Origin: Methanomassiliicoccales archaeon LGM-DZ1
GTDB lineage: Archaea > Thermoplasmatota > Thermoplasmata > Methanomassiliicoccales > Methanomethylophilaceae
Length of the DNA stretch: 64,000 bases
Assembly (NCBI GenBank): GCA_030168595.1
Contig: CP115556.1
Coordinates: 310,001 to 374,000 of the forward strand
Direction of reading: 5' to 3'
Shown: in pieces, positions 15,777-33,366 of the stretch
How the letters are laid out: every line of letters begins with the position of its first letter
Position numbering within the stretch: position 1 is the first letter of the stretch
Translations under genes and position numbers: made by a program
The notes under the pieces: model-generated
Database searches by the model: none
What the model saw: only the letters and a program-made list of their open reading frames with translations
What the model was told of the DNA's origin: nothing

Positions 15777-18700
15777 ATGCAGAGCCTCTTAAACAGATTT
15801 ACATCTCTTGACAATCCGAATAATGTTTTACTGATACCTTTACCGACAGGTGTTGGGAAAACATACAATGTCATGAGTTTCGTTGCTGATTTAATCAATT
15901 CAGGAGATGAGAGGAAAGTATTCTATGTGACTCCGCTGAAAAAGAATCTAAAATCGGCAAAGAAGGATCTCGAATCAATGCTGAAGGACAAAGGAAGAGA
16001 TCCTTCTTCCATTGTCCTCAATATAGATTCGATTACAAATTACATTATTGAAAACTACACAAGGCTCTGCAAAGAATACCGGAATCTCAAAAGCGACATC
16101 AGAGATTGTTTTCAAAATCCGGAAGTGTTCGACGATTTCGACAGTAAAATGGAGTGCTTTATCGAATTGAAAGAATCGTCCAAGAAGGGTTACAAAGTCA
16201 CCGATAAACTGATAGAGAAATTCAAAAAAGATGTTCTAGAGGCAGAAAGAAAGTTCAGGCGTGCATTGCATTCGATGTTACCCCGCGTGGAACCAGAAGA
16301 AAAATTACAATGCATCGAAGAAGAGAAATCAAAATGGTACTGGATCCCTCTACTGTATCCTTCAGTCAATACCATAAGGAGACAGGTTTACTTCCTTTCA
16401 GTAGACAAATTCATCAGCATACATGATACAATCATTGACAGAGCCTACAAATTTTACGAATCGGCGACACTCAACAATTCGATTGTGATTTTCGATGAAT
16501 TTGACGCTTGCAAAGAGACGATGCTCAAACGCATAATCTCGGATGGACTTGATAGGATTGATTATCTAGGAATGTTCAAGACTATCCTGCTTGTCCTCCG
16601 TGATCGTCAGAACATTTATGTTGAATATTACAGGGATTCTGAGAACACCGTTTCTAGGAAAGGGGAAGGTCACCTCAGAAACAAATTAGAAGAGCTAACG
16701 GAAGTCGCGGAGACACTATGTAGAGAATACGATCTCGATTGGTCATTCAAATCCAAGGATCCAGCTCTTGGTAATTACATTTTCCACGACTTCCGCTCGA
16801 TGACTGTTGGAAAGAGTGGAGAATTTAAGATAAAGGTCGATACTGATCGCAAGGTCCACGACATTCTTTTCGAAAGGAATACCTATCAATCGGATTTCGC
16901 AATCACCACGCTCTTCTCCAGATTGTACAGTTTCTTCATGAAGTTCAATGGTTTCATACGTACCCAGGCAGAAAACTATGTAGAAATCAAAAGAGAAGAA
17001 GGGAAGACGATACCGCTCGATGCTGCATTGAATACGATGTTGGTACCTTTTAGATTCGACCGGGAGCAGACCGATTATGTGCTTGGAAATATTCGTATGA
17101 TGGGTAGGACGAAAAGAACCGACGAAACTCGCGGATATGATGCTAGCGTTTACAACACAGGTATAGCGTACTATGATTTCGAAGACGATCTTACTCACGA
17201 TCTCTCTACGACCGTTTGTTCTACAGCATTCAATGTCACGCCGGAGAAAATCCTTCTGAAGGTATTGGAAAGGAGTGATGTGAAAGTGATTGGCATATCC
17301 GCCACAGCGATTCTTGATTCATCTGTTGGAAACTTCCATCTATATTATCTCCGCCACAGAGCAGAATGGATGGAAGAAACAATCAACGAGGATGAATGGA
17401 AAAGCCTTAGGGGATTATGTGACAAATCCACATCTGGATATTCGAAAGTCAATCTCCTCCCAGCAATAATCAACGGTGACGATGATGCTTGGTATTCCGA
17501 AGATCCGGCCATAGATGCGGTTTTCCATGATGCTTCTGCGTATGCTAGAGTGAAAATGATCCTTATTGGAATAGATGAATTCGCTCGTAATAGGTATCTA
17601 AAGTTGGCGAAAGCTTACAAAATTTTCATCCAGAACGACGATATGAAATCCTGTCTGGCATTCTTTTCCAAATCAGCCAAGTGGAAGGAGAAGGAACAAT
17701 CACCTAACAATCCTTTTTCCATCGAGGATATCGATAAGATTACACGCAATATTGCAGAAGAGCAGGGTAAACCCCTAGAGATAGGTAAATTCGGATTTGA
17801 AATTCTGACCGGACTCAACGAATACGAATTCGACAAAAGAATGGATGAGCTGAGAATAAGACTGTACCAGGGGGAGAAGATATTCATCATCACCACTTAT
17901 GCGACCGTAGGTGCTGGGCAGAATCTGCAATATCCATGCCCTGAAAACGGCGATTTCATCGAAATCAACCAATTCAAACAGAAAGTTTCAACCCCTAAAT
18001 CTTTCGACATCGAAGATATGATGAAAGCTGCCCCCAAGAAGGACTTCGATGGAATTTATCTAGATGAACCCACAATGATCGCACCTGTAGTAAGAGAGCG
18101 GGATGAGGATTCGCTAGTTCGGGCGTTGTTTGTCATAGAATTCCTTATGGAGGGCCATGAGATTTCTGAACGTGAGGCTAGGGATGCCATAAAGAATGCT
18201 TTCAAGGCATACATCACTCCGATTGGCTACACAATAAAGACAAAAGACACCAGAAGCGTCAAGATGTCATACGCTAGACAGATCATACAGGCCATCGGGC
18301 GTATTTGTCGTACCAATCTAAAGAACCGCAACATCTATCTTCTTGCTGATGCGAATCTGAAGAAGGTGTTCAATGAGTCCATAGATTCGTATGGTAAACT
18401 GAGGAATCCGGAATTTGATGCTGTTTATAAGGCGCTAGATAACTACAGCGGAATACGTGTGGATGTAAGGCGTCAGGCAGACGGGACAGATTTGGCATCA
18501 TCTAGGAGTTATGCTGAGATCCAGAAGTATATCAAGAAGAAATACTGGGATGAACAGCTTGTAGCGGCGTGGAAGGATTTACGTCTGAATGTTCTCAAAG
18601 AACCGACCTGTGATGAGATTCCGGGGAACATGTTCTACTACAGTTACTATTGCAATGCGGATTCTCCAGTGGATTGCATCCGTTACGAGGAGAAATACGA

Positions 18701-19289
18701 TTATTTCGAAGTAACCCTGGATGACAACGGCAGCAAAGAAGTATCATCAATGGCTGCACGTTTAGATCGGTTATTGGCTATTCCAGGAGTGAAACAGTGG
18801 TTCGAAGAGAACGGATATGCTACTGTCTGGAATCCGAATTACCGCATCATGAGTCCCGTTCTTTTCCACAATATATATCTTGGAGCTCTAGGGGAGGAGT
18901 CAGGCAAGGCCATTCTTCAGAATTGGGGAATAAAACTGGAAGAACTCCCGCCAGAGATCTATGAGAGATTCGATTATCGCATCGATAAGGATACGTACGT
19001 AGATTTTAAGCACCATGCAGGGATAATGAACTCTTTAGACTACGAATCAGAATTGAATCACATTTGTGACAAGCTGCGTTTCATCAATGAAGTGAACGGA
19101 GAAAACAGCGAGAAGAAGGTATACGTTATCAATATCCTAGAAAACGATGGCAAATTCCTACCAATGAAAACTACCGTCAGAGACGGTTTCACAATAATAG
19201 AAATACCGTATCTTTACGACAAAAACAATGTCCGGAACAAGGATGCCTACTCCGAATTAATGTCCACATTTTCAAAGAGAGGATACTGA
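15777..19289 (+). CDS. Large SF2 helicase of a putative two-gene defence system
   Basis: A 1170-residue protein with DEAD/DEAH-type motor motifs: Walker A LPTGVGKTY (22-30), DEFD box (240-243), SAT (508-510), TYATVGAGQNLQYP as motif V, and QAIGRICR (838-845) as motif VI. A long insert (about 80-235) separates motif I from II. The C-terminal 300 residues form an unknown domain. Motif V/VI style resembles Cas3/DinG-like defence helicases. It overlaps the next gene by 1 bp (TGATG), so the two are coupled. Codon use is AT-rich compared with flanking operons, a sign of separate transfer. It probably translocates on DNA to feed or control its partner. I could not match the pair to a named system. 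Confidence 0.75.
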   Translation: MQSLLNRFTSLDNPNNVLLIPLPTGVGKTYNVMSFVADLINSGDERKVFYVTPLKKNLKSAKKDLESMLKDKGRDPSSIVLNIDSITNYIIENYTRLCKEYRNLKSDIRDCFQNPEVFDDFDSKMECFIELKESSKKGYKVTDKLIEKFKKDVLEAERKFRRALHSMLPRVEPEEKLQCIEEEKSKWYWIPLLYPSVNTIRRQVYFLSVDKFISIHDTIIDRAYKFYESATLNNSIVIFDEFDACKETMLKRIISDGLDRIDYLGMFKTILLVLRDRQNIYVEYYRDSENTVSRKGEGHLRNKLEELTEVAETLCREYDLDWSFKSKDPALGNYIFHDFRSMTVGKSGEFKIKVDTDRKVHDILFERNTYQSDFAITTLFSRLYSFFMKFNGFIRTQAENYVEIKREEGKTIPLDAALNTMLVPFRFDREQTDYVLGNIRMMGRTKRTDETRGYDASVYNTGIAYYDFEDDLTHDLSTTVCSTAFNVTPEKILLKVLERSDVKVIGISATAILDSSVGNFHLYYLRHRAEWMEETINEDEWKSLRGLCDKSTSGYSKVNLLPAIINGDDDAWYSEDPAIDAVFHDASAYARVKMILIGIDEFARNRYLKLAKAYKIFIQNDDMKSCLAFFSKSAKWKEKEQSPNNPFSIEDIDKITRNIAEEQGKPLEIGKFGFEILTGLNEYEFDKRMDELRIRLYQGEKIFIITTYATVGAGQNLQYPCPENGDFIEINQFKQKVSTPKSFDIEDMMKAAPKKDFDGIYLDEPTMIAPVVRERDEDSLVRALFVIEFLMEGHEISEREARDAIKNAFKAYITPIGYTIKTKDTRSVKMSYARQIIQAIGRICRTNLKNRNIYLLADANLKKVFNESIDSYGKLRNPEFDAVYKALDNYSGIRVDVRRQADGTDLASSRSYAEIQKYIKKKYWDEQLVAAWKDLRLNVLKEPTCDEIPGNMFYYSYYCNADSPVDCIRYEEKYDYFEVTLDDNGSKEVSSMAARLDRLLAIPGVKQWFEENGYATVWNPNYRIMSPVLFHNIYLGALGEESGKAILQNWGIKLEELPPEIYERFDYRIDKDTYVDFKHHAGIMNSLDYESELNHICDKLRFINEVNGENSEKKVYVINILENDGKFLPMKTTVRDGFTIIEIPYLYDKNNVRNKDAYSELMSTFSKRGY

Positions 19290-21151
19290 TGAGGCTGAAC
19301 AAAATCGCCGATCCATGTTTTGATTACGGTAAAATCAACGAACGTTTTGCATTCTATCGTTTCGAATGCAAAAGTTATCGCCAGCGTGCGAACATCTGCG
19401 ATCATCTGAAAGCATATGCCCCAATAATGTCAGTAAGAAATGGAAGTCGCGGTGAAGGATACAGTGTAGACGTGATGGCGAAAAGCGATCCAACAATCGA
19501 TGAGAATGTGAAATCGATAGGATTGACTGAAGAATCGTCCAAGGAAAACGTATCGCTCAGAACAATGTCTGCAGAGGATTTACCGACATCAGTCTTGTTA
19601 CAACTATTGGTAGCAGCTCTGAACAAGGATGAATTGGAGAATGGTCCGAGCAATGCATCCGGTAATTTCTACCTCATAATCGACGAGAAACAGGACAAGA
19701 AAAGAAGCATAACTTCAGAAATCGTGGCATTGGAGTTTAGGGTGATAGAGCGCGACTATTCTGGTACTGGTACAATGGATTGCTACCTTGCTATGAATGT
19801 GAGGACGTTCACTAATTACAAGCTAAAAGATTACATCCGTTTCACCAAAAAGAATCCCGCAGAATCGTATCCGAGGTATGTCAAGGACGGCCCATGTATC
19901 AGGAGATTAGTCAAAGGTGATCAGGGAGATTCATTCATACTGCGTCGTATTGGGAATAAGAAATCGAAGGTCCAGTTCTTTTCGTTCCAGGATTATGAGA
20001 AGATGTCCAAATCCAAGGTCTGGATTCTTTCTGAGATTCAAGAAGCTTTCAATCTGAAGTATTCTAGGTTAGCTAAGTTGGAGTTTTCAGATGAAACTAG
20101 CTCCAAATCGATTAGACCTAATAATACTCAGATGAGGAAAACTTACGAATCTCGTATAAATGACGTCCTGAGAACAAAACCGATCCACATCATCAACACT
20201 CTCGGGGATGACGGCAAAGATATCCAGGAAGCAATCATCAATCGTTTCAAGGAACGTGGATTCGATGTAAGAGAAGATAGTACTCAGAGTTTCGATTCTT
20301 TCATTGTAAAACTGATTCACAACAAAGAGTACTATTCTAGCGGAGAGATTCACGATCCTCACTCCCCTGCTACATATAGCTCATTACAGCATGTGACTTT
20401 AGAGGATTTCAAAAAGTCCAAAGCCGCGATCGATGTCGTCGCTACCAATCTGGCTATCAAATCAGACATCAATGAAGGAAGGATAACGATAGCAGATTGG
20501 TCCCTTGGAAATTTGACCTTTTCCTTGAAACTCGATGATAAGGAGGATCTGGATGCGGAATATGTCTCGCTTTCAATCGACTCCAATGGATCATTAAGAT
20601 TTGACAAGTTCCGGGCTGGGGATTCCACCAATATGCGTCTGGGTTCAGCAATGATGGTAAAGAACGTAATCGGAGCAATATCCAAAGGCAAGGATGTGAA
20701 TGTCATTCGCGATACAGACATTTTTACCCTTCCAGACATAAAAAGAATCCGTTCACAGATGAAAAAGAACGAATCTAGTGGAATCGGCCTGGGTACAGGA
20801 ATACGCGATGAAGGCGGCCGCCAAGACTTTCTAGAGGAGATGATCGATATCAACACCTTGACGCTGAACGATTCCCATCTACTGTATGCCGTCGGGTATG
20901 TCGGTTCCGGAGTGTCGTCGACTCTTGAAAGGGCAATCAATGTACGTCTAGTCGAAGCTTGGGAAGGTTCAAATCTCTTTTTCAATGATATTCTCGAATT
21001 GATGGATGTTTATTTCGTCAAACACAAACAGCTGACGGTTATGCCATATCCTTTCAAGTATCTCAGAGAATGGTGTTATTTGAACGAACTGCTGGATGAA
21101 GAGGATGATTCTGAACAAATATCTGAAGAGGATTCAGAAGATGAGGATTGA
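19289..21151 (+). CDS. Unrecognised 620-residue helicase partner
   Basis: No standard nuclease motif was seen. An N-terminal part (1-150) has beta strands ending VALEFRVIERD and CYLAMNVRTFTNY. A middle domain starts near 290 with KPIHIINTLGDDGKDIQEAI, Rossmann-like in pattern. The C-terminal domain (about 410-600) ends HKQLTVMPYPFKYLREWCYL, then an acidic tail. The N-strand/linker/MID/PIWI-like order and the Pro-rich ending are faintly reminiscent of divergent Argonaute-fold proteins associated with helicases, but no catalytic tetrad could be assigned and I do not claim homology. It is translationally coupled to the helicase and ends 3 bases from the convergent dpdA-like gene. Confidence 0.6.
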   Translation: MRLNKIADPCFDYGKINERFAFYRFECKSYRQRANICDHLKAYAPIMSVRNGSRGEGYSVDVMAKSDPTIDENVKSIGLTEESSKENVSLRTMSAEDLPTSVLLQLLVAALNKDELENGPSNASGNFYLIIDEKQDKKRSITSEIVALEFRVIERDYSGTGTMDCYLAMNVRTFTNYKLKDYIRFTKKNPAESYPRYVKDGPCIRRLVKGDQGDSFILRRIGNKKSKVQFFSFQDYEKMSKSKVWILSEIQEAFNLKYSRLAKLEFSDETSSKSIRPNNTQMRKTYESRINDVLRTKPIHIINTLGDDGKDIQEAIINRFKERGFDVREDSTQSFDSFIVKLIHNKEYYSSGEIHDPHSPATYSSLQHVTLEDFKKSKAAIDVVATNLAIKSDINEGRITIADWSLGNLTFSLKLDDKEDLDAEYVSLSIDSNGSLRFDKFRAGDSTNMRLGSAMMVKNVIGAISKGKDVNVIRDTDIFTLPDIKRIRSQMKKNESSGIGLGTGIRDEGGRQDFLEEMIDINTLTLNDSHLLYAVGYVGSGVSSTLERAINVRLVEAWEGSNLFFNDILELMDVYFVKHKQLTVMPYPFKYLREWCYLNELLDEEDDSEQISEEDSEDED

Positions 21152-21154
21152 TTT

Positions 21155-22093
21155 TCAATACTCATCTTCTTTAATCTTTAACTGGGATTTGCGAGATTTA
21201 TAGATTCCAGGGAGATAATCATCAGATGGGTCTTCTAGCATAGCCATGTTGTTCCAATAGTCCGTAATCATCTTCACATTGAACATCGCTAGATTTGCGG
21301 GCACATACCCATCCATCTTGTGCACCTTGCTGAAGACCGTAGCCATTTGTCCTTCGACGGGATTGAAACTTTTCCCGAATACGGAATTGAGTTCGGGGGA
21401 GCTCGTATCATAACTGCACTCGATGCCCGTTTTACGGGCATATAATTCTGCTTGAACCAGGACGCGAAATACGCCCATGCCGAATATGTGAACACGGCTG
21501 TTCCCGTAATCATGGATTAATGGGAAACCTTTGTTCACGACTTCATAGAATTCGGTTTCATATTTCACAGACTTTGATAGGATGCAGAATCCTCCGAATC
21601 CTATGATGTCTTCAGGCGATGCGATATCTAGTATCGCTTTGAGACATCCCATGTACTGAGGAGCGGTCGCACCCTGGCAACTAAGAACTAATTTTCTTCC
21701 CTTAAGGCGGTTCCTTTGAGAAACAAGGTATTTTGCGGATTCGATCGTTTCTTCCACATACTCTTTTCCGAGGGATTCGGAGACCCTTTCTTTAAATTGA
21801 ACTCCGTCTTCGATTTGTTCATCGACCAGACGATCATATGAAACAATGGCTTCTGCCTTGCGACCCACTTTCTTTTCAAAATCCAATTGACGCTGGAGAG
21901 CGGCCTGTGGAGTTAACCTGTTCTCGGTTTTTACATCCTGGAATGCCCCGGAATCTAGGATATAACTGACGCGGCTGTGTTTTTTGAGAGAAGCGTTATA
22001 ATAGGGGTTCAGACAAAGATAGGGTGTAATCGTCTCGGGAGAGTATTCCTTTCCGTTCAGCGTATCGTGGCATTTCGAAACGTAGAACCTCAT
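21155..22093 (-). CDS. dpdA: DpdA-like DNA/tRNA-guanine transglycosylase
   Basis: A 312-residue protein of the TGT superfamily. SYILDSGAFQ carries the general-base Asp47 of the DSGxFQ motif; VSYDRLV, LSCQGATAPQY and IIGFGGF follow the TIM-barrel order, VHIFGMG is at 201-207, and SYDTSS has Asp229 in the nucleophile position. It lacks the PUA domain and length of archaeal tRNA TGT (about 480-640 aa) and the bacterial TGT zinc site is not apparent. Its size and sparse motifs fit DpdA, which exchanges guanine for preQ0 in DNA. The host would supply preQ0 from archaeosine synthesis. It converges on the helicase pair. A tRNA-modifying paralogue remains possible. Confidence 0.7.
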   Translation of the reverse strand: MRFYVSKCHDTLNGKEYSPETITPYLCLNPYYNASLKKHSRVSYILDSGAFQDVKTENRLTPQAALQRQLDFEKKVGRKAEAIVSYDRLVDEQIEDGVQFKERVSESLGKEYVEETIESAKYLVSQRNRLKGRKLVLSCQGATAPQYMGCLKAILDIASPEDIIGFGGFCILSKSVKYETEFYEVVNKGFPLIHDYGNSRVHIFGMGVFRVLVQAELYARKTGIECSYDTSSPELNSVFGKSFNPVEGQMATVFSKVHKMDGYVPANLAMFNVKMITDYWNNMAMLEDPSDDYLPGIYKSRKSQLKIKEDEY

Positions 22094-22100
22094 CAGGATT

Positions 22101-22139
22101 TCCTCCTCAGAATGATGTCTCCAGTATCTATTATAAATT
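22101..22139 (-). promoter_or_regulatory. dpdA promoter and ribosome binding site
   Basis: On the minus strand AGGAGGA (22107-22101) lies 7 bases before the ATG at 22093. AATTTATAA (22139-22131) is a TATA-like box about 40 bases upstream, so the transcript carries a short leader. Confidence 0.55.
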
Positions 22140-22194
22140 CGCCCTTATTCCATTCAGGCAGCGCCCGCCAACCACATTATCAGCCCCGTTTTGG

Positions 22195-22454
22195 TTAAAC
22201 TTTGCGTAGCTTCCGCTGTGCGACCGCCTTCTGCAGGTGCTGTGCCTCAGCTCTCGTGCGGGCGGGATCTCCGCCGGGCCGCCATCTTATTCACGCCCAT
22301 CCGCCCCTCCGGGACGGAGGACCTCACCGCGTATCCGGCTGTCCCTCGGCTTTGCGCCATCTTTTGCTTCGGCCTGCCGCTGATGCGGCGGCCAAATGGT
22401 GCTCGGCGATTAAGGCCCCGGGATGCCCGCGCTCGGCGCCCGCATATCAGGGGT
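22195..22454 (-). ncRNA. Candidate bridge RNA of the IS110 element
   Basis: This 260-base flank downstream of the transposase has no convincing ORF on the minus strand but many nested hairpins: GGCGG/CCGCC near 22264-22278, CTCCG/CGGAG near 22312-22324, and GCCGC/GCGGC near 22377-22390. IS110-family elements encode a structured bridge RNA in a non-coding end; in the IS1111 group it lies 3' of the recombinase, as here. The target- and donor-binding loops were not mapped. Confidence 0.45.
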
Positions 22455-23576
22455 TCAGTCCGCCGCCGGATCCCCCTCCGCTTCCTCCGCCATCTCGGCG
22501 GAGCGTTCCAGGAGCTCCCTGTCGGTGCTGAAGGGCCTGCGGTTCCTCAGCACCGACCAGACCACGGTCACCAGCTTGCGCGCGGCCGCCACCTGGGCCT
22601 CCCGGTGGGAGACCCCCCTCGCCCTCAGCCTGTTGTAGAGGGCCGAGACCACCGAGTCCTCGGCGGTGCGGACGTGGACGATCGCCGACTGGCACAGCAG
22701 CCTGCGCATCTCTCTGTCGCCGCGGTGCGTGGTCGCGCACCGGTGCGAGGTCTCCGCCGATTCGCGCACCTTCGGCACCAGGCCGAAGTACGCCGCCAGC
22801 TGGGCCGACGACCCGAAGCGCTTCACGTCGATGATCATAGAGACCGCGTACGCGGCCGAGACCGCGCCGAACCCCGGGATGCTCATCACCAGGTCGAAGT
22901 CGGTGATGTGCCCGAACGTCGCCCGGATCAGCCTGGCCTCCTCGTCGGTGCGGGCCTTTATCGACCTCGCCTCCGACACGAGGAGCCTCAGGCAGGTGTC
23001 CCTCGAGTCCCACATCTCCTTCATCGCCTTCTTCGAGAAGATGTCGGAGTAATCCTTGCTCAGCCTGATCCCGTGGAGGAGCATGTGCATCCTGGCCCGG
23101 CGCTTGAGGTCCGCCAGGTGCCTCTTCTCCGCGAGGACCGCGCGGCATATCTCGCGCCGCTCCATCCAGACCGGGGACGGCATCTTGCAGACGGCGAACT
23201 CGCGCTCGCCGTTCAGCCTCCGCCGCATGTACCCCGCGAGCTCGGCCGCATCGTTGGCGTCGGTCTTCTTCACGGACTTGGTGATCCGGTAGAGGTCCTG
23301 GGCCTGCGCCACGACCGTGTCGATCCCGAGGTTGGTCAGGACCCAGTAGGTCTCGTGCGTCTTCGTGGAGTTCTCGATGAGGACATGCGCCTCATGCCCG
23401 CGGAGCGCCTCCGCGATCCGCGCTATGTCCTCGGGCTCCGACGGCTGCGTGCCGTGGTCCCTGTTGAAGCGCCTCAGGAACTCCTCCTCGTCTTCGCTCG
23501 GCTTCCCCGGGCCCGCATGGACCGCGCAGCATACCGCGGTCTTCTTGTGCAGGTCCATCCCGATCGCTATCCTCAA
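22455..23576 (-). CDS. IS110-family transposase (DEDD recombinase)
   Basis: A 373-residue recombinase. The RuvC-like N-terminal domain has the first acidic residue in IGMDLHKKT, IENSTKTHETYW, and KTDANDAAELAGYM carrying the last Asp pair. The C-terminal transposase-20 domain has SIPGFGAVSA and QLAAYFGLVP, with the likely nucleophilic serine in the segment after it (RESAETSHR). The TTG at 23576 is chosen as start because MRIAIGMDLHKK matches typical family N-termini and GGGAGG lies 10 bases before it. The frame stays open upstream to a TAG at 23682. IS110 enzymes move DNA under guidance of a bridge RNA. Confidence 0.88.
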   Translation of the reverse strand: MRIAIGMDLHKKTAVCCAVHAGPGKPSEDEEEFLRRFNRDHGTQPSEPEDIARIAEALRGHEAHVLIENSTKTHETYWVLTNLGIDTVVAQAQDLYRITKSVKKTDANDAAELAGYMRRRLNGEREFAVCKMPSPVWMERREICRAVLAEKRHLADLKRRARMHMLLHGIRLSKDYSDIFSKKAMKEMWDSRDTCLRLLVSEARSIKARTDEEARLIRATFGHITDFDLVMSIPGFGAVSAAYAVSMIIDVKRFGSSAQLAAYFGLVPKVRESAETSHRCATTHRGDREMRRLLCQSAIVHVRTAEDSVVSALYNRLRARGVSHREAQVAAARKLVTVVWSVLRNRRPFSTDRELLERSAEMAEEAEGDPAAD

Positions 23577-23681
23577 GCTTTCCTTGCCTCCCTGCCGCAA
23601 CCTTCCCCGGAGGCCTGCCGAGGCGCCAATCTTTATCTCAGGTCGGCGATATTCCTCTCGGCCTGCGGTTTTTTGTTGCAA

Positions 23682-23843
23682 CTATGAATCAGCAGGTCGC
23701 TTTTTGAATGGGGCGGTCTTTTCAGAATAGAATTCGAATACCGTCCCCTTGTCAATATGGTTGATCTCGGCGAAATCTTTGGGGATTGTTATGGTCAATT
23801 GCCCGGAATCTTTCCGTTTCTGAACTTTGGTCGTCAATACCAT
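23682..23843 (-). CDS. SpoVT/AbrB-like small DNA-binding protein
   Basis: A 53-residue protein missed by long-ORF searches. VQKRKDSGQLTITIPKDFA followed by KGTVFEFY is the swapped-hairpin AbrB/MazE fold pattern. Such proteins are often antitoxins or autorepressors that bind their own promoter. The last residues (KKRPADS) run into the IS110 border, so the native C-terminus or a downstream toxin gene may have been removed. The stop is TAG, and the next codons continue in frame into the transposase ORF. A palindromic operator lies 12 bases upstream. Confidence 0.7.
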   Translation of the reverse strand: MVLTTKVQKRKDSGQLTITIPKDFAEINHIDKGTVFEFYSEKTAPFKKRPADS

Positions 23844-23995: not shown

Positions 23996-26794
23996 ATGTT
24001 CCGGAATATGATTTTGAAATGCTCTGAAGCGTGGCATAAGAGTTCCGACTGTCCTGTCAGTGAAATGATCTCATACATCTCAATGAGGGGTGCGATGAGG
24101 GATGCTCAAATTGAAGCAATAAAGATCTATCTTTTTCTGAAAATTGCTTGTAATAATGAGCCTTTGGCTCAATTGTTTCTCGAGGGACGTTTCAACACTC
24201 TTGATCTTGAAGAGGAGGAACTCAAAAAGAGCACGAGAGAATACCTTATGGATCATCCCGGCGCTGCTGCCCTGTATGAATATTGTATCACAACCCCGGT
24301 TGCAAACGACGATAAATCAAATCTGGAAAAGATATTGAAGATCCTGAAAAATGACCCCGCATCAGTTGATTATCAGAAAGTCTTTACAGACATATTTTAC
24401 GGAGTTACATACTCTGATTACATCTTTAGCTTACCGATGGGTGCAGGCAAAACCTTCTTGATGGCCGCATTCATTTACCTTGACCTGTATTTTTCCTCAC
24501 TGGATTCTGAAAACAAGGCATTCGCACAGAATTTCATCGTACTTGCACCTTCTGGGCTGAAGAGTTCTATTATTCCGAGTCTTAAAACAATTAGAAACTT
24601 TGACCCTTCATGGATATTGCCGGATAATGTTGCCAGTTCAATACGCAAAGAAATTACATTCGAACCTCTGGAATCAAATTCATCAGCATCGAAATCAAAT
24701 CGTACGAAAAATCCCAACGCACGCAAGGTGGGATTATACCTAAGGCGCTCGATGAGGGGTGTTGTTTTTGTGACCAACGCTGAGAAGGTCATATTGGATC
24801 GCCTCGGAGCAAAAAAAGGGCCATCCCAAAGAACACTGGACGATGAGAAACTAGACGAGATGTCAAACGAATTAAGAAGAATGATTGGATTAATACCTCG
24901 CCTATCCATATTCATCGATGAAGTCCACCATGCCTCGGATGATTCCATCAAATTAAGACAGGTTGTCGCAGGCTGGGCCGAACGGGATTCTGTGGTGACA
25001 GTGGTTGGTTTCTCTGGAACTCCATACCTTCAAAAAGCGGAGAAGATTCCGATCGCAGCCGGAGTCAACTATTCCAGTACTGAAATCAACAATGTAGTCT
25101 ATTACTACCCACTAATCCAAGGTATTGGGAATTTCCTCAAGAAACCTTCGGTTACTCAATACGAGAACCGTGAGGCATACACCGAAATCGTTGAAAACGG
25201 ATTAAGGGAATTCTTTTCAGAATCCAGAGATACTGTTTACAAAAACAACACTTGTTCAAAGATTGCCATTTATTGTAACAGTATCGAAGAATTAGAGAAT
25301 GATGTTTATGCTTCGGCTTCCAAAATATGCGAGGAAGTTGGGCTCAACCCATCTGAATCCATTTTGAAATATCACGAAGATCACAATGAATACAAATTAT
25401 CGCCTGACGCAAAAATGGAATTCGAGACGCTTGACACTCCTCAATCCAAAGTACGTGTTGTGCTTCTAGTCCAGATAGGTAAAGAGGGCTGGGATTGCAG
25501 AAGCCTAACGGGAGTCATTCTAGCCAAAGAGAATAAGAGTACACGTAACATGGTTCTGCAGACCTGCTGCAGATGCTTGAGGCAAGTGGACAAGTATGAT
25601 TACGATGAGAAGGCGTACATCTACCTGTGCAAATCAAATGCGGAATTACTTGAGGCTCAACTGAAAGCAGAGCAGCACATCACTCTTAAAGAATTCCAGG
25701 AGGGTAAGCAAAAACCAAAGACTGCATTGGATTTCTATAATCGCAAAGTTATCTTGAATCTCCCCCCAATAGACTATTATCAGTTCCTGGTAAAATATAA
25801 CGTAGTTTCAGAGGACGAACCCGATGTGGATGCAAACCTCCGGTCGATTCCCCTGGAAGATCTGAGAATAGTTAGGCAGGCAATCACCAAGGATTTCGAG
25901 AACAAAATCCTAGATCGTTCAGACGAAGATATCGAACGCGGAAAAGAGAATCTTGATGTAGCAACGTTCGAGACATGGATAGGACTAATTTCAAAAGAGA
26001 GTTTTGGGTTTGTACCCACAAAACAATTACAAGAACACGCAGAAGAATTGAAGAATATCTATTCCACCATTACCTTTGTAGTTGATGGAATAGCTTACTA
26101 CAGCTCCAAATTCGAGCAACCAAAGATACGTTCCCTGATTCGCCAGGCATTCTATGCCAAGCGCAGACTCGATATGACATCTGAACTCATCGAAAACACA
26201 GGAGAACTGTTGCTTGATGCGTATTTTGAAAAACATAAGGAAGTAACTGATCCGGAATTGCACTACCCGAATCAGGATTTCGTTCACAAAACAATGGAAG
26301 ATGATTTGAATGGTTTCGAAGGGCGTGATTTGATGAAGCGTCGCTACCACTACATGCCCTACCATTTCGACAGTAATTTCGAAATGAACATTTTGAAACA
26401 TATTCAAGAGTTGTCCATGATAAAACAGTCTAATCTCGAGGTTTATTACAATGGAAATCGTTTCCTAACGGAATTCCATATCAAGTGTTATGAGAAGATC
26501 GGAACTCGTTGGAATTTCGTAGGACAATATACGCCGGACTTCCTTATCGTAGAGCGTAGAGATGATGAAATCTACAAAGCACTCATAATTGAAACCAAAG
26601 GTCAGATCTACGCACAGGACAAGAATTTCTTGAAAAGAAAAGAGTTCGTCGAGAATCATTTCTTAATTGAGAATGAAAAACAGTATGGCTATCGCAAATT
26701 TGATTACCTCTACATCGAAGATACAATGGCAGAATCCGAACAACATAGCAAGATAATGAAGGCAATCAAACAATTCTTTGAGGTGGAAACATGA
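23996..26794 (+). CDS. res: Type III restriction-like helicase-nuclease (Res)
   Basis: A 932-residue protein. Motor motifs: Walker A PMGAGKTF (147-154), DEVHH (308-312), GFSGTP, and a C-terminal helicase lobe with KEGWDCRSLTGVI and TCCRCLRQ. The C-terminal nuclease shows the PD-(D/E)xK pattern TPDFLIV (Asp848) and IIETKG (Glu866, Lys868). Type III Res subunits cut DNA after ATP-driven communication between two unmethylated sites. It is a normal size for Res. It overlaps the mod gene by 4 bp (ATGA). The order res-mod is reversed relative to the classical mod-res. A weakly similar family is the BREX or defence helicase group, but the endonuclease tail favours type III. Confidence 0.88.
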   Translation: MFRNMILKCSEAWHKSSDCPVSEMISYISMRGAMRDAQIEAIKIYLFLKIACNNEPLAQLFLEGRFNTLDLEEEELKKSTREYLMDHPGAAALYEYCITTPVANDDKSNLEKILKILKNDPASVDYQKVFTDIFYGVTYSDYIFSLPMGAGKTFLMAAFIYLDLYFSSLDSENKAFAQNFIVLAPSGLKSSIIPSLKTIRNFDPSWILPDNVASSIRKEITFEPLESNSSASKSNRTKNPNARKVGLYLRRSMRGVVFVTNAEKVILDRLGAKKGPSQRTLDDEKLDEMSNELRRMIGLIPRLSIFIDEVHHASDDSIKLRQVVAGWAERDSVVTVVGFSGTPYLQKAEKIPIAAGVNYSSTEINNVVYYYPLIQGIGNFLKKPSVTQYENREAYTEIVENGLREFFSESRDTVYKNNTCSKIAIYCNSIEELENDVYASASKICEEVGLNPSESILKYHEDHNEYKLSPDAKMEFETLDTPQSKVRVVLLVQIGKEGWDCRSLTGVILAKENKSTRNMVLQTCCRCLRQVDKYDYDEKAYIYLCKSNAELLEAQLKAEQHITLKEFQEGKQKPKTALDFYNRKVILNLPPIDYYQFLVKYNVVSEDEPDVDANLRSIPLEDLRIVRQAITKDFENKILDRSDEDIERGKENLDVATFETWIGLISKESFGFVPTKQLQEHAEELKNIYSTITFVVDGIAYYSSKFEQPKIRSLIRQAFYAKRRLDMTSELIENTGELLLDAYFEKHKEVTDPELHYPNQDFVHKTMEDDLNGFEGRDLMKRRYHYMPYHFDSNFEMNILKHIQELSMIKQSNLEVYYNGNRFLTEFHIKCYEKIGTRWNFVGQYTPDFLIVERRDDEIYKALIIETKGQIYAQDKNFLKRKEFVENHFLIENEKQYGYRKFDYLYIEDTMAESEQHSKIMKAIKQFFEVET

Positions 26795-28788
26795 CTATCA
26801 GATACATTCCGTATCAGCCCGAACCAGTTACTGGTCAAGCGGTTCTTTCAAATTTCAATCGCGTGTTAAAATACAAAGGATCCAATGATCTTGAATCCAG
26901 AATCGTCAGAGGAATGCCTCTGTATGAAGCAGAATTGATCGAAACCGTTGGAAATCCAGACAGTGGAAACATGGTATTTCGTGGAGATTGTATCTCCACT
27001 TGTGCTTATCTGAGGGACAAGGGAATCAAAGTCGATCTGGTTTACATAGATCCTCCATTTGCATCTGGCGCAGATTATGCCAAGAAGGTATTTTTGCGTA
27101 AAAATCCTAAGATTGCAGAAGCAATAGAAAAAGCAGAATCAGAATTGGATATGGAGGATTTTAAGCAATTCGAAGAGAAGATGTATGGGGATATCTGGGA
27201 TAAGGAAAAGTACCTTAGTTGGATGTATGAAAATCTTCTAGCCATTCGCTCCGTAATGTCTGAGAATGCTTCGATTTACGTACATCTTGATTGGCACATC
27301 GGCCACTATGTAAAAATTATGCTAGATGAGATTTTTGGCGAAGATTGTTTTAAAAATGAAATAATCTGGAAAAGATCCACTGCTCACAGCGATAATTCTA
27401 CATTTGGAAACCTTCACGATTCAATATATTATTATGTAAAAGATCCCGAATCATATGTTTTTAATCCACAATATGCTCCATATTCTCAAGAATATATTGA
27501 TACATACTATCGTCACGAAAACGATGATGGGCGTAGGTTCTTAGATCGGGATTTGTCTGCTAAGGGATTGAAAGGGTCGGGGTATACCTATACTTGGAAA
27601 GGAAAAGAAGGGTATTGGAGATGTCCTTACGAAACAATGTTGAAGTATGAACAAGAAGATAGACTATACTATACATCCAATGGAACTCCAAGGTATAAAC
27701 AGTATTTGGATGAAATGCCAGGCGTCCCTTTACAAGATATATGGGCAGATATCTATGCTGTCAATTCTCAGGCAGAAGAAAGAGTTAGCTATACTACCCA
27801 AAAACCCGAATCTCTTTTGGAACGCATCATTAATGCTTCTTCAAATCCCAATATGATGGTAGCTGATTTCTTTGGCGGCAGTGGGGCCTCATCGGTCACA
27901 GCGAGCAAATTGAATCGCAAATTCATCCATTCAGATGTGGGCATTAACAGCATTCAGATAACACGTGACCGCTTAAAAAATGTTTCAGCTGATTTTGATA
28001 TATATGAAATACGCGACGGGATTTCTCTATATCGCAACCCTGTCCAAACTATGGATAAGCTAAAGGCGCTTATACCGGGACTTAAAAATGAGGATTCGCT
28101 TGATAAATTTTGGGAAGGTGTCATAAACGATCCGCGGTATGGAGTTGTTCCGGTTTATGTACCCAATTTAATGGATTCCACTACACGTATCTTGGATGAG
28201 GTTTTGATGCGTAGAATCCTATACGAGGCCATACCCGAACTCACAGACTTGCCTTCAGTCAAAAGGGTTATCGTTTACTACATCGACGTGTCCGATATGG
28301 ACAAGATTAACGAAATGATTTCCAAGGACAAGGAACTAAACGTAGAAATTGAATTCCGCGACCTTAAAGACATCCTCGATGACGTATCTTTAGAAGATGA
28401 AATGGATTATTCAATCAAAGAAGATCATTCCAAGATCGACGGCGGCTTTGTAATAGACATAAACAAGTTCTATAGTGATGCAGTCATCCGTCGTATCAAT
28501 TCATTCAATCTTAAATCTGCACAGAATGATAAAAAAGGTAAATTTAAACCCATCACAATCTCCGACAACGGATTAGAATTGATAGAATACATTTCGTTGG
28601 ATTGCACAAAAGACGATGGTGTTTGGAATTCTGATACCGAAATTAAGATTGAATATACCAGTAAACTTACTGTAGATGGAAAGAAAACAGACAATTACTG
28701 GAATGGTAAGATTTGCTCTTATCAGAAACCACTGCGTATTAAGGTACGTAACATCTGCGGTGATGAGACCATATTCAAAATTGAGTGA
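26791..28788 (+). CDS. mod: DNA methyltransferase, type III Mod-like (beta class)
   Basis: A 665-residue amino-methyltransferase. Motif IV is DPPF (87-90, in VDLVYIDPPFASGADYAKK) and the SAM-binding motif I FFGGSG lies at 360-365, so catalytic before SAM region, the beta-class order. Between them is a variable target-recognition stretch (about 180-330) with many aromatic residues. Motif DPPF rather than NPPY/DPPY variants is compatible with N6-adenine or N4-cytosine methylation. The C-terminal 250 residues probably contact Res. It would protect the host from the Res nuclease encoded 4 bp upstream. Confidence 0.9.
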   Translation: MTIRYIPYQPEPVTGQAVLSNFNRVLKYKGSNDLESRIVRGMPLYEAELIETVGNPDSGNMVFRGDCISTCAYLRDKGIKVDLVYIDPPFASGADYAKKVFLRKNPKIAEAIEKAESELDMEDFKQFEEKMYGDIWDKEKYLSWMYENLLAIRSVMSENASIYVHLDWHIGHYVKIMLDEIFGEDCFKNEIIWKRSTAHSDNSTFGNLHDSIYYYVKDPESYVFNPQYAPYSQEYIDTYYRHENDDGRRFLDRDLSAKGLKGSGYTYTWKGKEGYWRCPYETMLKYEQEDRLYYTSNGTPRYKQYLDEMPGVPLQDIWADIYAVNSQAEERVSYTTQKPESLLERIINASSNPNMMVADFFGGSGASSVTASKLNRKFIHSDVGINSIQITRDRLKNVSADFDIYEIRDGISLYRNPVQTMDKLKALIPGLKNEDSLDKFWEGVINDPRYGVVPVYVPNLMDSTTRILDEVLMRRILYEAIPELTDLPSVKRVIVYYIDVSDMDKINEMISKDKELNVEIEFRDLKDILDDVSLEDEMDYSIKEDHSKIDGGFVIDINKFYSDAVIRRINSFNLKSAQNDKKGKFKPITISDNGLELIEYISLDCTKDDGVWNSDTEIKIEYTSKLTVDGKKTDNYWNGKICSYQKPLRIKVRNICGDETIFKIE

Positions 28789-28803
28789 GTGAAAGGGAAC
28801 AAA

Positions 28804-31152
28804 ATGGTCAGCTATGATCTCTTCCTGAAATGTGTAACACCAGCTACCGGGCGCGATATAGAATCCAATTCGGATCAAAAGTCTATAGTGTCTTCGCCAG
28901 TGAACAGGTCCATAAAAGTAATCGCCGGCCCCGGTAGCGGTAAAACAACAGTCATTGCACTAAGATTGATGAAACTCATCTTTGTTGATGGGATTGACCC
29001 TCAGGAAATTGTAGCGACCACATTCACCGTCAAAGCATCTAAGGAGCTCAAATCGAGAATCCTTTCCTGGGGAATAGCGATAAGGAAAGAGATACTGCCA
29101 CTTCTCACTGGCCTAGGCGATTTCGAGGAACGCGAACGTGTAAAACGTTTGAATTTCGATCAGATAAAAATCGGAACCCTTGATGCTATAGCTCAGGAGA
29201 CACTCACCGACGAATGCAGGGCAGATCAGGATCCGCCGATCGTAATCCAAGACTTCATTGCTAAGCACTTCATGGTTTCGGAATGGTTCAATCATCACGA
29301 TATTCAAGGAGGCATAGTTGAAGAATTACTGAAGATTGGATTCAACTCGTTCGGACTCGGTACACCTGACAGACCTGTAGTTGCCGGTGCTGTGAAACAC
29401 CTTATGGACTTCCATAACAGGATGATGGAGAATGGAATCGACCCGATTCAGATGAAGGGTGACTATCCCAATCTGGCTGCCATTCTTTCAGATTACAATG
29501 AAAAGTTGATTGGTAAAAAACTACTGGATTTTCCCGCTCTGGAGCAAAGATTCCTGAGTTTTGTCTCCACATCCGAATCAGATCATTTCTTCGAGAAGAT
29601 TAAGGTTCTCATGGTGGATGAATATCAGGACACCAACCTTCTTCAAGAAAAGATATACGGGCAGTTTGTAAAACGTATCGTCCAGAAAAACGGGTGCTTT
29701 ATTGTTGTCGGTGACGATGACCAGTCGATATACAGGTTCCGCGGATCACGCGTACATCTGTTCTCTGAAATCGAACATCGTTTCGAGAAATACGGGGTGA
29801 AGATGGAGACGGAATATCTCTCTGTCAACTATCGTTCAACACAGAATATCGTCGAGTTCTGCAATGACTATGTCGGTTTGGACCCGATCTACCAGGAAGT
29901 TCGTGCCGGAGACAAACCTGACATGTCCGTGTCTAGGAAGGATGGTGACAATTTTCCCGTATTCGGAATATTCCGTGACAAGCTGAGTGATCTGGCAAAA
30001 GACATAGCAGATATCGTCCACCAGTTTTCATACAATGGTTCGTACACCTTTGTGGATGAAGACGGTGAGGAATACGTATTTGAAAAGTCCCCTGGTGGCG
30101 GGCCGGGGGATGCCGTTTTATTGATGTCTTCAACAGCCAACAAAACTTATTCCGACAATCCACGTTCACGCTTGCCAGAGTTTCTGGCTAAAGAATTATC
30201 AGAACGGTCTCCGCAGATAATACCATTCAATCCTCGTGGGAATAGACTTTGCGACGACCCCGATGTCGTTAAACTCGTGGGCACATTAATTTGGTGCATC
30301 GATCCTGGTTATCAATTACTTTCCAAGATAAAGCTCGATAAGAGAGCATCGAAAACGAGAGACTATTGGAAAACCGAATCAGAGTATTACATCAATCACG
30401 CTCCAGATTATGCGGGCATACGTTTGAAAGACATCGTTCATTCATGGGCCACGGGAACATCTTATCCTACTCCTGGAAAATGGACTAAAAACAAAGTTAC
30501 AGTACTGGATATTCTTTACAATCTTTTGCCTTGGTTCTGTAATAACCGCTGCAATGCAGAATCCATGGTATCAACGCAGGCGATATTCAACGCAATCGCA
30601 TCGGCCGCAATTATAAAGGGTGACGAGCTAGTAATCAAGTTCAACAAAGATAACCACAGGCCTGTGTCGACCACTGTTAATGAGTTTTATCGTTTAGTCG
30701 TTCGTCCACTTCTGGAAGATTCGTTGGAGATTGATGAGTCTTTATTTTTCTCGATTTCATCCGATCATCGTTTCAATATTATGACTATTCACCAGGCCAA
30801 GGGGTTAGAGTTTCCGATTACTTTTGTCGACGTATGCTCTGATTTTGAACGTAATTACGTTATGCAGCGTCTCAAGAGATTCCCTGATAAATTCGATGAC
30901 ACCTCACTAATCGAACGGGTCATGGCAAAATACTGCCCAGATATCGTAACCGATCGTTCTGAGATTGATATGCAGTTTGATGATTTGACCCGCAAACATT
31001 TTGTTGCATTCAGCAGAGCTCAAGACGTATTGATTTTAGTCGGATTATCGCAGTCATTGGTAAACAAGGAATTGAAGAATATCGCCCTTGGTTACACCAG
31101 GGACGGCAATTGGGCGTGGAAAGGAATGGACAATTTGAAAATCATGAGGTGA
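28804..31152 (+). CDS. UvrD/Rep-like SF1 helicase
   Basis: A 782-residue SF1A helicase: Walker A AGPGSGKTT with Lys47, DEYQD (272-276), GDDDQSIYRFRGS (motif III), NYRST (motif IV), TIHQAKGLEFP (motif V) and a final HFVAFSRAQ (motif VI). It is longest between motifs IV and V, with an insert near 400-560. ATG 28804 is preferred to GTG 28789 because the latter would abut the mod stop with no binding site. Such helicases unwind from 3' tails; next to a RecB-like nuclease it can form an AddAB-like end-processing machine, here attached to a restriction operon. Confidence 0.88.
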   Translation: MVSYDLFLKCVTPATGRDIESNSDQKSIVSSPVNRSIKVIAGPGSGKTTVIALRLMKLIFVDGIDPQEIVATTFTVKASKELKSRILSWGIAIRKEILPLLTGLGDFEERERVKRLNFDQIKIGTLDAIAQETLTDECRADQDPPIVIQDFIAKHFMVSEWFNHHDIQGGIVEELLKIGFNSFGLGTPDRPVVAGAVKHLMDFHNRMMENGIDPIQMKGDYPNLAAILSDYNEKLIGKKLLDFPALEQRFLSFVSTSESDHFFEKIKVLMVDEYQDTNLLQEKIYGQFVKRIVQKNGCFIVVGDDDQSIYRFRGSRVHLFSEIEHRFEKYGVKMETEYLSVNYRSTQNIVEFCNDYVGLDPIYQEVRAGDKPDMSVSRKDGDNFPVFGIFRDKLSDLAKDIADIVHQFSYNGSYTFVDEDGEEYVFEKSPGGGPGDAVLLMSSTANKTYSDNPRSRLPEFLAKELSERSPQIIPFNPRGNRLCDDPDVVKLVGTLIWCIDPGYQLLSKIKLDKRASKTRDYWKTESEYYINHAPDYAGIRLKDIVHSWATGTSYPTPGKWTKNKVTVLDILYNLLPWFCNNRCNAESMVSTQAIFNAIASAAIIKGDELVIKFNKDNHRPVSTTVNEFYRLVVRPLLEDSLEIDESLFFSISSDHRFNIMTIHQAKGLEFPITFVDVCSDFERNYVMQRLKRFPDKFDDTSLIERVMAKYCPDIVTDRSEIDMQFDDLTRKHFVAFSRAQDVLILVGLSQSLVNKELKNIALGYTRDGNWAWKGMDNLKIMR

Positions 31153-31156
31153 AAAG

Positions 31157-32305
31157 ATGGCAATCAAGACAAAAGGACAACCTTATGAAATTCCACGCTA
31201 CAGTCTGACTGGGGATCTTCTGTCATTCCTGGAATGTGAAATCCAGTATCGTTTCAATTCTAAAGGTTCGATGCCTCCATCGACTCCCGTCCAAAGATGG
31301 TTCGGAGACTTCATTCATGGAGTAATGGAAGTAGGATTTTCCGAATGGAAAGATGGCCGTCTTGACCTCAACAATATGGATTTCGAAGATACTCAACGTA
31401 TCGCTAAAATCGTTGCCGAAAGGCTGGAGGATAGGGGCCTACACCCTTACGGCAGTCTGTACATTAAAGAAGATTCCGGAAATAACAAACGCAAGGATTA
31501 CAACGGCAACATGATCGCCCACTTTTCTTTATCCAGATGGGCCCCCTATCTGTATCCTCTTATTAACGATAATGAGGTCAAAATGGAGGATCTTAGGCCG
31601 ATGTTGGGATACGGTCAGGGCCTGAGCAATTCAGAATATTATGCCGTCCAGGGCATAGTCGATGTTATATCGACATTCGATGTACGCAAATTCCAAGCCA
31701 ACAATCCCTTGGTAAAAGCCTTGATGCTCAAAGAGGAAGTTAGTGATCTAATCAGTAATCAGGATGAATATGAGATTATCATCGATTACAAGGGAATGGA
31801 GAGGCCTCCAACAGATTCTGATACTTGGAAACATCACGAATGGCAGCTGAACACATATATGTGGCTTAGAGATCAGCAGATTAAAGCCGAAGGTAGAAAA
31901 ACTCCGATTCTGGCAGGTGTGCTACTTTATCTAAACGAATTACACCTCTCAAAGGCCGCCATTGAGAGGCTGCAGAAGGTAGTAAATGAAGGCAGAACGG
32001 ATTTGATGCCTAAGGAACAGGATCTGCACCGGTTGCAAAATGGGAACAGATTCAACGAGAGTTTCCGTATTAAACGTAGCATAAGAGTGGTTGCGTACAA
32101 TCCGGAACAAATCCAGTCCTCCCTAGAGCACTTTGATAACGTCGTGAAGTGCATCGAGTCAAATCTCATTTCTGAACAATCCGATTCAACAGACGTCTGG
32201 AAACATTGGACAGGGAAATACAGTAAAGATCGTTGTGTCGCATGTGATTTAAAGACATTCTGTCCACATGCAAAGGAGGGTAATTTCTCCATTCAGGTGC
32301 CATGA
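31157..32305 (+). CDS. Cas4/RecB-like nuclease with probable Fe-S cluster
   Basis: A 382-residue PD-(D/E)xK nuclease. Catalytic residues are Asp169 (GIVDVI), Asp210 and Lys212 in IIIDYKG, and the QxxxY motif at Gln230-Tyr234 (QLNTYMWL). Cys27 plus the C-terminal trio Cys360-x2-Cys363-x5-Cys369 match the four-cysteine iron-sulphur layout of Cas4 and AddB. These enzymes trim DNA ends. It starts 4 bases after the UvrD-like gene, and its stop overlaps the next gene by 4 bp, so helicase and nuclease are made together and probably act on the same end. Confidence 0.82.
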   Translation: MAIKTKGQPYEIPRYSLTGDLLSFLECEIQYRFNSKGSMPPSTPVQRWFGDFIHGVMEVGFSEWKDGRLDLNNMDFEDTQRIAKIVAERLEDRGLHPYGSLYIKEDSGNNKRKDYNGNMIAHFSLSRWAPYLYPLINDNEVKMEDLRPMLGYGQGLSNSEYYAVQGIVDVISTFDVRKFQANNPLVKALMLKEEVSDLISNQDEYEIIIDYKGMERPPTDSDTWKHHEWQLNTYMWLRDQQIKAEGRKTPILAGVLLYLNELHLSKAAIERLQKVVNEGRTDLMPKEQDLHRLQNGNRFNESFRIKRSIRVVAYNPEQIQSSLEHFDNVVKCIESNLISEQSDSTDVWKHWTGKYSKDRCVACDLKTFCPHAKEGNFSIQVP

Positions 32306-33366
32306 TGACTTCTGTTTCGCTGCCACTCACTAAAAGGCAGATAATTGCCTCATTATCTAAGGTCAAATCCGACCCCTATGTGCAGGAAGTTTTCAGGAAG
32401 CATCCGAAGGCTGAGCAGGTTGCAAAGCAACAACTTGACGATTGCTCTACTTTGATCATTGAGAACGTCAAACGTCTAAAAAAAGATCGTAATTTGAGAC
32501 CAAGCAAAATAATGGATTACGTATTGCATAACATGGAGATGGAGATACACAATCTTCCTCCGGATTCACCACATATTGAGTATTTGAGCAATTATCTAGA
32601 AAAACCGCCCCATCTCCTTTACAAATATGTCTCTAGAGAGGTCACGCAAAAAGATCTCGAGGGTCAGAATTTTCGTTTTGGTTTGGTTGAGGAATATCGT
32701 GTAGAAGATGAACATGAACTGGACCTAATCTCTGCCCTGAAAAAGGTTTCAATCAATGAAAAACGGTTCAGTTTTACCCGTATTCTTTACAATGCATTAG
32801 GCACCCAGGTGCTCAGTCTAGAAAAGTTTAGCAAGGCCACACATACTACTATTGGCAAACACTTTTTTGTAGGCTGCATTTCAGAGGCGAAGTATTCTGC
32901 CAAGTTGTGGGAGAAACGTGCAGGCGATTATGGATCGCGCCTAACATTCGATATCTCTGAATCAAAATTTGAATTTCATAAAGTCGTCTATTGTAATCAT
33001 CCCATTAACACGAAATACATCGAAGATAAGGAAAGCAGTTTGTGTGAACGGTTATCCAAAGAACAATACGATGATGTTCGGGCCGATTTGGAATCGTTCC
33101 TCAAAGAATTGGCACTTCTAGGCATAATGTCAGCTTTTCGTAAGGATACAAAGTGGAAATGGGAACGTGAATGGAGAGCAATAAAACCAAAGCGTGGCCT
33201 ATCTAGAAAATTAATTTGGATGACAAAAACAGGTCTAGGTTATTTTCCTAAAGAAGTCGGCAAAATAATTCAGGTTTATAGTAAAATGCCATTGGCAGAA
33301 ACGAATGATGTGAAGAAGTATTGCAGAAAGAATCACATAACGTTTAGGCATTATCGCTATAATTGA
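32302..33366 (+). CDS. DUF2971-like protein of the restriction operon
   Basis: A 354-residue protein, last gene of the five-gene operon. LLYKYVSREV (about 108-117), VGCISEAKYSAKLWEKRAG near residue 196 and KWKWEREWRAIKP near 280 reproduce the DUF2971 pattern (K-Y-R/V, C/S-F-S-E...LW..Y, E-WR). The usual core is about 250 residues; here a 100-residue helical N-terminus precedes it. DUF2971 proteins recur in defence islands; their chemistry is not settled, and an enzymatic toxin or sensor role is suggested by context only. The overlap with the nuclease gene indicates it belongs to the same system. Confidence 0.65.
   Translation: MMTSVSLPLTKRQIIASLSKVKSDPYVQEVFRKHPKAEQVAKQQLDDCSTLIIENVKRLKKDRNLRPSKIMDYVLHNMEMEIHNLPPDSPHIEYLSNYLEKPPHLLYKYVSREVTQKDLEGQNFRFGLVEEYRVEDEHELDLISALKKVSINEKRFSFTRILYNALGTQVLSLEKFSKATHTTIGKHFFVGCISEAKYSAKLWEKRAGDYGSRLTFDISESKFEFHKVVYCNHPINTKYIEDKESSLCERLSKEQYDDVRADLESFLKELALLGIMSAFRKDTKWKWEREWRAIKPKRGLSRKLIWMTKTGLGYFPKEVGKIIQVYSKMPLAETNDVKKYCRKNHITFRHYRYN

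Follow-up and report, generated by a model that had tools for sequence, protein, structure and literature searches.

Gene content of the locus

We analyzed a 64,000-nucleotide stretch (the window) of a 1.77 Mb archaeal genome that consists of one contig. On its minus strand, an uninterrupted open reading frame (21155..22093) runs from ATG to stop and encodes a 312-residue protein, a putative DpdA-like DNA transglycosylase of viral lineage with the fold of the tRNA-guanine transglycosylases (TGT), as judged from homology, a structural model and a phylogenetic tree. Its DSGAFQ motif begins at residue 47 and the aspartate of the nucleophile region is D229, within SYDTS (residues 227-231). By alignment, D47 and D229 are the predicted catalytic residues, while Q140 and G167-G168 would form the base pocket.

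Two plus-strand genes converge on the transglycosylase. The preliminary description had taken them for an unrecognized helicase pair and, perhaps, for its restriction part; the pair is in fact recognizable as DdmD, a helicase-nuclease (15777..19289), and DdmE, a prokaryotic Argonaute (19289..21151), lying in tandem on an archaeal chromosome and abutting at nucleotide 19289. DdmD is matched by PADLOC (2.8e-31) and over its full length by PDB 9ix4 (E 1.7e-48), and DdmE by PADLOC (7.8e-8) and, mainly at its C-terminus, by PDB 8u3k (E 7e-7). DdmDE is a stand-alone plasmid-defence system, and we regard it here as a separate neighbour. The stop codons of DdmE and the transglycosylase lie a few nucleotides apart (21151 and 21155) and all three genes are of the defence type, as would be expected if they formed one restriction-modification unit, but the convergent orientation gives no hint of co-transcription, the pair matches the known stand-alone system, and no DdmDE was found on either flank of the TGT gene in two other TGT-bearing genomes (G028 and G143). 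We therefore rejected DdmDE as a partner, as it is not conserved with the TGT, and give hardly any credence to a common unit.

Only 52 bp upstream of the transglycosylase gene, an IS110-type insertion sequence (22145..23722, give or take a few bases, minus strand; transposase at 22455-23681) separates it from the genes beyond. Seven near-identical copies of the element occur in the genome, which points to a recent insertion. The element has cut a minus-strand AbrB/MazE-like regulator gene into a 5′ part (23682..23843) and a 3′ end (22090-22144) that shared bases with the start codon of the TGT gene; in G028 the TGT is immediately preceded by an unbroken homologue (L004 14876-15067). The family assignment of this regulator is weak, with a Pfam PF04014 score of 21.2 bits, under the 24.7 cut-off. 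Since the insertion cuts the transglycosylase off from its old upstream region, the gene may be poorly expressed. At the extreme it would be a silenced and now inactive relic, as the recent element and the broken regulator might suggest; we consider this quite improbable, given that the reading frame and all the catalytic residues are intact and that the upstream region still has a TATA-like sequence, TTTATAAT, as well as a ribosome site, GAGGAGG.

Across the insertion sequence lies a tightly packed plus-strand cassette of four genes (23996-32305), joined by a 4-nt overlap or by gaps of at most 4 nt. It encodes Res, a type III-like SF2 helicase-endonuclease (23996..26794; GAGKT 149, DEVH 308, PDF 847...ETKG 866); Mod, an N6/N4 DNA methyltransferase of the type III Mod-like kind (26791..28788; DPPF 87, FGGSG 361); a UvrD-like SF1 helicase (28789..31152); and a RecB/Cas4-like PD-(D/E)XK nuclease (31157..32305; D169, D210-K212). 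The catalytic motifs are complete in all four proteins, and the first two carry the features of type III restriction-modification enzymes, namely DPPF and FxGxG in Mod and DEVH and PD...ExK in Res. Four cysteines of the nuclease (27, 360, 363 and 369) are invariant among ten homologues and, to judge from this pattern, probably hold an Fe-S cluster. As detailed below, the UvrD helicase and the nuclease are the core partners of the transglycosylase. The preliminary description was right that the usual dpd neighbours are absent, but the cassette across the insertion sequence supplies a different, conserved set of partners.

DpdB is required in the bacterial Dpd system. We sought DpdB, DpdC and QueC in the cassette and found none; the window as a whole gave no DpdB or DUF6884 match, and PADLOC returned no dpd match among ten window proteins.

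Two further genes lie downstream. A DUF2971-like gene (32302-33366) overlaps the stop codon of the nuclease by 4 nt and may join the operon; it had no homologue in the other loci compared. At 35563-36378 lies a CARF/HFX_2341-like gene, recognized by weak Pfam matches, whose product is possibly a cyclic-nucleotide sensor.

Fold and active site of the transglycosylase

As a single query, the window TGT gave no match in Pfam, NCBIfam or PHROGs, no meaningful match in the PDB and none among phage records; the only plasmid match was a weak one from Paraburkholderia (23.5% identity over half of the query, E 0.05). Homologues sharing its motifs were found in three other archaeal genomes, at 56%, 43% and ~40% identity. 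A viral scan with the single sequence returned nothing, and a three-sequence profile then recovered homologues with the same motifs from 11 viral contigs. PHROG 887 (queuine tRNA-ribosyltransferase) matches seven of 14 family members.

Across all 14 members D47, Q140, G167-G168 and D229 are invariant, and these positions (in DSGAFQ, QG, GG and SYDTS, respectively) align with their counterparts in the E. coli TGT, the arcTGT of the host and the DpdAs. A few proteins in the comparison differ at the pocket glutamine or the second glycine, with H in the phage 9g DpdA and S or A in two archaeal DpdAs. Asp47 and Asp229, whose structural alignment had been proposed earlier as a check on the enzyme, thus both align with the catalytic aspartates of the three groups. 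The zinc-binding CxCxxC motif present in the E. coli TGT, the arcTGT and five DpdAs is missing from the window protein and, at that position, also from the phage 9g DpdA. With 312 residues against the 653 of the host arcTGT, the protein lacks the C-terminal domains (PUA) of the latter.

An AlphaFold model built with 13 relatives as the alignment is a TIM barrel (pLDDT 85.1, pTM 0.86). Its top PDB matches are tRNA-guanine transglycosylases (E ~1e-9), and it also matches the DNA preQ0 insertase DpdA (7ui4, E 4.4e-8) and, in a comparison with viral models, R9TGF0 of Vibrio phage nt-1 (4.9e-8). Profile-profile comparison with hhalign gave 96% probability (E 2.9e-9) against a set of five DpdAs and 42% (E 2.6e-4) against a set of tRNA TGTs. 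Judged by its modelled fold and predicted active site, the protein is a member of the TGT superfamily. Congruently, reading frame, alignment and model all agree with what had been noted at the outset, a TGT-fold protein with DSGAFQ and a nucleophile-region aspartate but without the C-terminal domains of the arcTGTs. The protein gave no hit with the DpdA profiles of NCBIfam (NF041059) and PADLOC, and the proven phage 9g DpdA does not pass them either. Hence, by profile tests it is no member of the DpdA equivalog, while by its presumed function we place it with the Dpd kind.

Phylogenetic position

The preliminary description had proposed a phylogeny with DpdA and tRNA TGT. In a maximum-likelihood tree of 24 proteins, whose branches are long and whose rooting is unknown, the window TGT family and the viral proteins form one clade (97/99), apart from the clades of the tRNA TGTs (99/97) and the DpdAs (99/97). 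The nearest outsider to the window/viral clade is the phage 9g DpdA, on a long branch (end branch 2.2). AU tests rejected a tree in which the window/viral clade joins the arcTGTs (p = 0.003), as well as one in which the four archaeal members alone do so (2e-32), whereas joining the clade to DpdA was not rejected (0.13). The window protein thus falls outside the tRNA TGTs, and on these results we rejected the reading as an arcTGT paralogue. Of the viral TGTs, the one closest to it (61% identity over the best-matching segment) is broken into two reading frames on its contig (L015 7269-8145).

Supply of preQ0 and pathway context

That the archaeal host makes preQ0, as had been assumed, is borne out by its own QueC (G000:C1:712010, 249 bits), and a separate canonical arcTGT (653 aa, 274 bits) is also encoded. 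An extra TGT like the one in the window is present in three of 400 genomes of the class, a rarity not expected of a housekeeping tRNA enzyme. With preQ0 at hand and the tRNA role already filled, dPreQ0 would be the expected product of the extra enzyme. A genome-wide search for DUF6884 in the three TGT genomes (G000, G028 and G143) detected none, and because no such DpdC-type gene was detected in the genome, dPreQ0 is probably also the final product.

The window locus itself is without preQ0-pathway genes; relatives of its TGT that have such neighbours are those of viruses and of one Paenibacillus genome. In a 152-kb viral record (phage L016) the genes for QueD (PF01242, 3e-33), a radical-SAM protein that we read as QueE, QueC (6e-77), a DUF6884 protein (6e-43) and the TGT (9995-10804) follow one another on one strand. 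DUF6884, identified with the DpdC domain by GATOR-GC (PMC11888242), is also encoded directly upstream of the TGT in L010 and L022. Directly downstream of the TGT in L010, L017 and L012-L014 lies a gene for a Vut_1/YhhQ-like transporter, called by Pfam in L010, L012 and L017 and by sequence likeness only in L013 and L014; YhhQ is the preQ0 transporter of E. coli (PMC11888242).

Taken with fold and lineage, this context of the relatives upholds the initial suggestion of a DpdA-like enzyme that probably puts preQ0 into DNA, and we consider DNA modification by the window TGT likely. The accompanying idea that one gene could suffice is plausible too, as in E. coli the DpdA of phage 9g suffices by itself to place dPreQ0 in plasmid DNA (PMC6884629). 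A haloarchaeal host DpdA has been mentioned in passing in the same work (PMC6884629). Were the enzyme instead to act on RNA, whether tRNA or some other, as a diverged paralogue of the arcTGT, its tRNA-TGT fold and the tRNA enzymes at the top of its PDB matches would be accounted for. Against this stand the canonical arcTGT in the same genome, the scarcity of the extra gene, the missing PUA domains and zinc motif, the AU tests and the DpdC-like genes adjoining the phage relatives, and we find an RNA substrate very unlikely.

Linkage to a UvrD helicase and a nuclease

The transglycosylase, the UvrD helicase and the nuclease are encoded together at all four archaeal TGT loci, in differing arrangements. 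The order in G028 is TGT, UvrD, nuclease, Mod and Res, with TGT and UvrD divergent and the Res gene in three pieces, and in G143 it is TGT, nuclease, UvrD, Res and Mod, with Res and Mod diverged. At the window locus, transcription of the TGT gene leads away from the Res operon, and in L009 TGT, UvrD and nuclease lie on one strand as a single operon, with a gap of ~12 nt between the first two.

As an independent test, we used the nuclease alone as the query, leaving the TGT unused. Beyond the TGT genomes this search led to three further genomes (G323, G345 and G347), four plasmids (of Picosynechococcus, Rhizobium, Bradyrhizobium and Halobaculum) and one viral contig, all of which encode the UvrD-nuclease pair; a phylum-wide scan added no further genome. 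A DpdA is present at each of these eight loci. It lies beside the pair or within ~3 kb of it in G323, G345, G347, Rhizobium and Bradyrhizobium, and ~5-9 kb away in Halobaculum and Picosynechococcus; on the viral contig the distance is ~18 kb. The DpdAs of L049, L051 and L050 score 519, 413 and 266 bits, all above the NF041059 cut-off of 200, and DUF6884 genes or domains lie alongside most of the eight. A rough estimate of the chance of finding the linkage at six of six genomic loci is ~2e-10; because it was the TGT that first led to three of the six, the cleaner evidence comes from the eight nuclease-derived loci. As a negative control, the weak nuclease match of G306 (L069) is a UvrD-nuclease fusion, of the type reported by Hudaiberdiev et al. 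together with type III restriction-modification genes (PMC5704561), without a TGT in the 20 kb examined.

The viral locus (L046) is an 86-kb contig on which one virus carries a restriction set of the host type, with both the UvrD helicase and its RecB/Cas4-like nuclease alongside a DpdA and a DUF6884 (DpdC-like) gene. The pair is, therefore, not strictly a part of host defence, and this viral set perhaps fits the destruction of unmarked host DNA.

Two of the plasmids hold further features. The DpdA of the Halobaculum plasmid (L050 15438-18344) is a 968-aa protein with a fused DUF6884 (DpdC-like) domain, and its gene adjoins those for FolE, QueD, QueE and QueC as well as the UvrD-nuclease pair. 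On the Picosynechococcus plasmid (L047 14180-19751), a second TGT-family protein of 307 aa is encoded between two related DEAD-box helicases, beside the DpdA, in what looks like another TGT-based unit.

The linkage bears on a further explanation, in which the window TGT modifies DNA but, instead of forming one system with UvrD and the nuclease, stands alone as an orphan or as a counter-defence gene captured from a virus; it would shield the DNA of the host or of an element from restriction, including that by the neighbouring Res/Mod. The nearest relatives of the TGT are viral genes, a gene of this kind might be oriented as the TGT is, pointing away from Res in the window and diverging from UvrD in G028, and phage 7-deazaguanines shield DNA against restriction (PMC6884629). 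However, the adjacency to UvrD and the nuclease is kept over a split of ~40% TGT identity and takes the form of a tight operon in L009, and canonical DpdAs keep the same pair at the eight independently found loci. We regard counter-defence as possible but unlikely.

Discussion

Built on the observed fold, active-site residues, lineage, context and partner linkage, the reading that we favour, with somewhat better than even confidence, is a minimal archaeal Dpd-like restriction-modification system in which a TGT of viral lineage marks self DNA with dPreQ0 and the UvrD helicase and nuclease destroy DNA that is unmarked. With D229 as the nucleophile and D47 as the general acid/base, the transglycosylase would break the glycosidic bond at selected DNA guanines and insert preQ0 taken from the archaeosine pathway of the host, leaving dPreQ0 as the self mark; the DNA substrate, the base and the mark are all predicted from sequence comparison. 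The UvrD-type helicase and the Fe-S nuclease would jointly degrade DNA without the mark, as an AddAB-like effector, so that restriction would fall to the helicase-nuclease set. The type III-like Res/Mod pair would add a second, methylation-based layer, as it may usually do in the archaeal loci.

To our knowledge, the restriction mechanism of dpdD-K is unexplored, and the Dpd systems in the literature that we searched are bacterial and need several modification genes. The window locus resembles them in having a TGT-fold enzyme fed by preQ0 beside helicase and nuclease genes, in a defence island. In bacteria, dpd islands comprise dpdA-C for modification and dpdD-K for restriction (PMC11888242), whereas the window, on an archaeal chromosome, has a 312-aa TGT of viral lineage with neither a zinc site nor DpdB or DpdC, and a UvrD helicase, a RecB/Cas4-like nuclease and a type III-like Res/Mod pair in place of dpdD-K. 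The DpdA of phage 9g (Hutinet 2019, PMC6884629) is likewise a short, zinc-less TGT and works as a single gene, but it is very distant and its phage encodes the full set of G+ synthesis genes; no UvrD-nuclease pair is annotated in 45 kb of phage 9g. Hudaiberdiev 2017 described a UvrD-Cas4 fusion with type III Mod and Res (PMC5704561), that is, a UvrD helicase and a pfam12705 nuclease in similar company; there the two are fused, while in the window they are separate genes linked to a DpdA or TGT, and the text of that paper mentions no transglycosylase or queuosine gene (PMC5704561). Finally, BREX-related capture (BRC) systems, archaeal ones included, are composite defences in which a TGT-type enzyme is proposed as the source of a self mark, and they are built on PglZ, DUF6079 and HerA/FtsK (PMC12839542); we saw none of these three in the window cassette. 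In the literature searched we found no description of the pairing of UvrD-nuclease with DpdA, nor any of archaeal chromosomes that carry this TGT family, and an earlier mention is possible.

More widely, we put at about even the chances that these loci represent a cross-domain class of 7-deazaguanine restriction-modification, with UvrD and a RecB/Cas4-like nuclease as the effector, paired either with a canonical DpdA, in bacteria, archaea and viruses, or with a one-gene viral-type transglycosylase that draws on the archaeosine pathway; viruses carrying the same set would perhaps use it to destroy unmarked host DNA. The work also defines a family of putative DNA transglycosylases of viruses that largely escape the profile libraries we used. 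The two-gene helicase-nuclease, recognizably AddAB/Cas4-like in composition, accompanies DpdA repeatedly in hosts ranging from cyanobacteria to haloarchaea and is a concrete, small and testable candidate effector for self recognition based on 7-deazaguanines. If our reading is true, a single small enzyme taps the archaeal preQ0 pool, and this suggests that the DNA of some relatives of methanogens carries dPreQ0.
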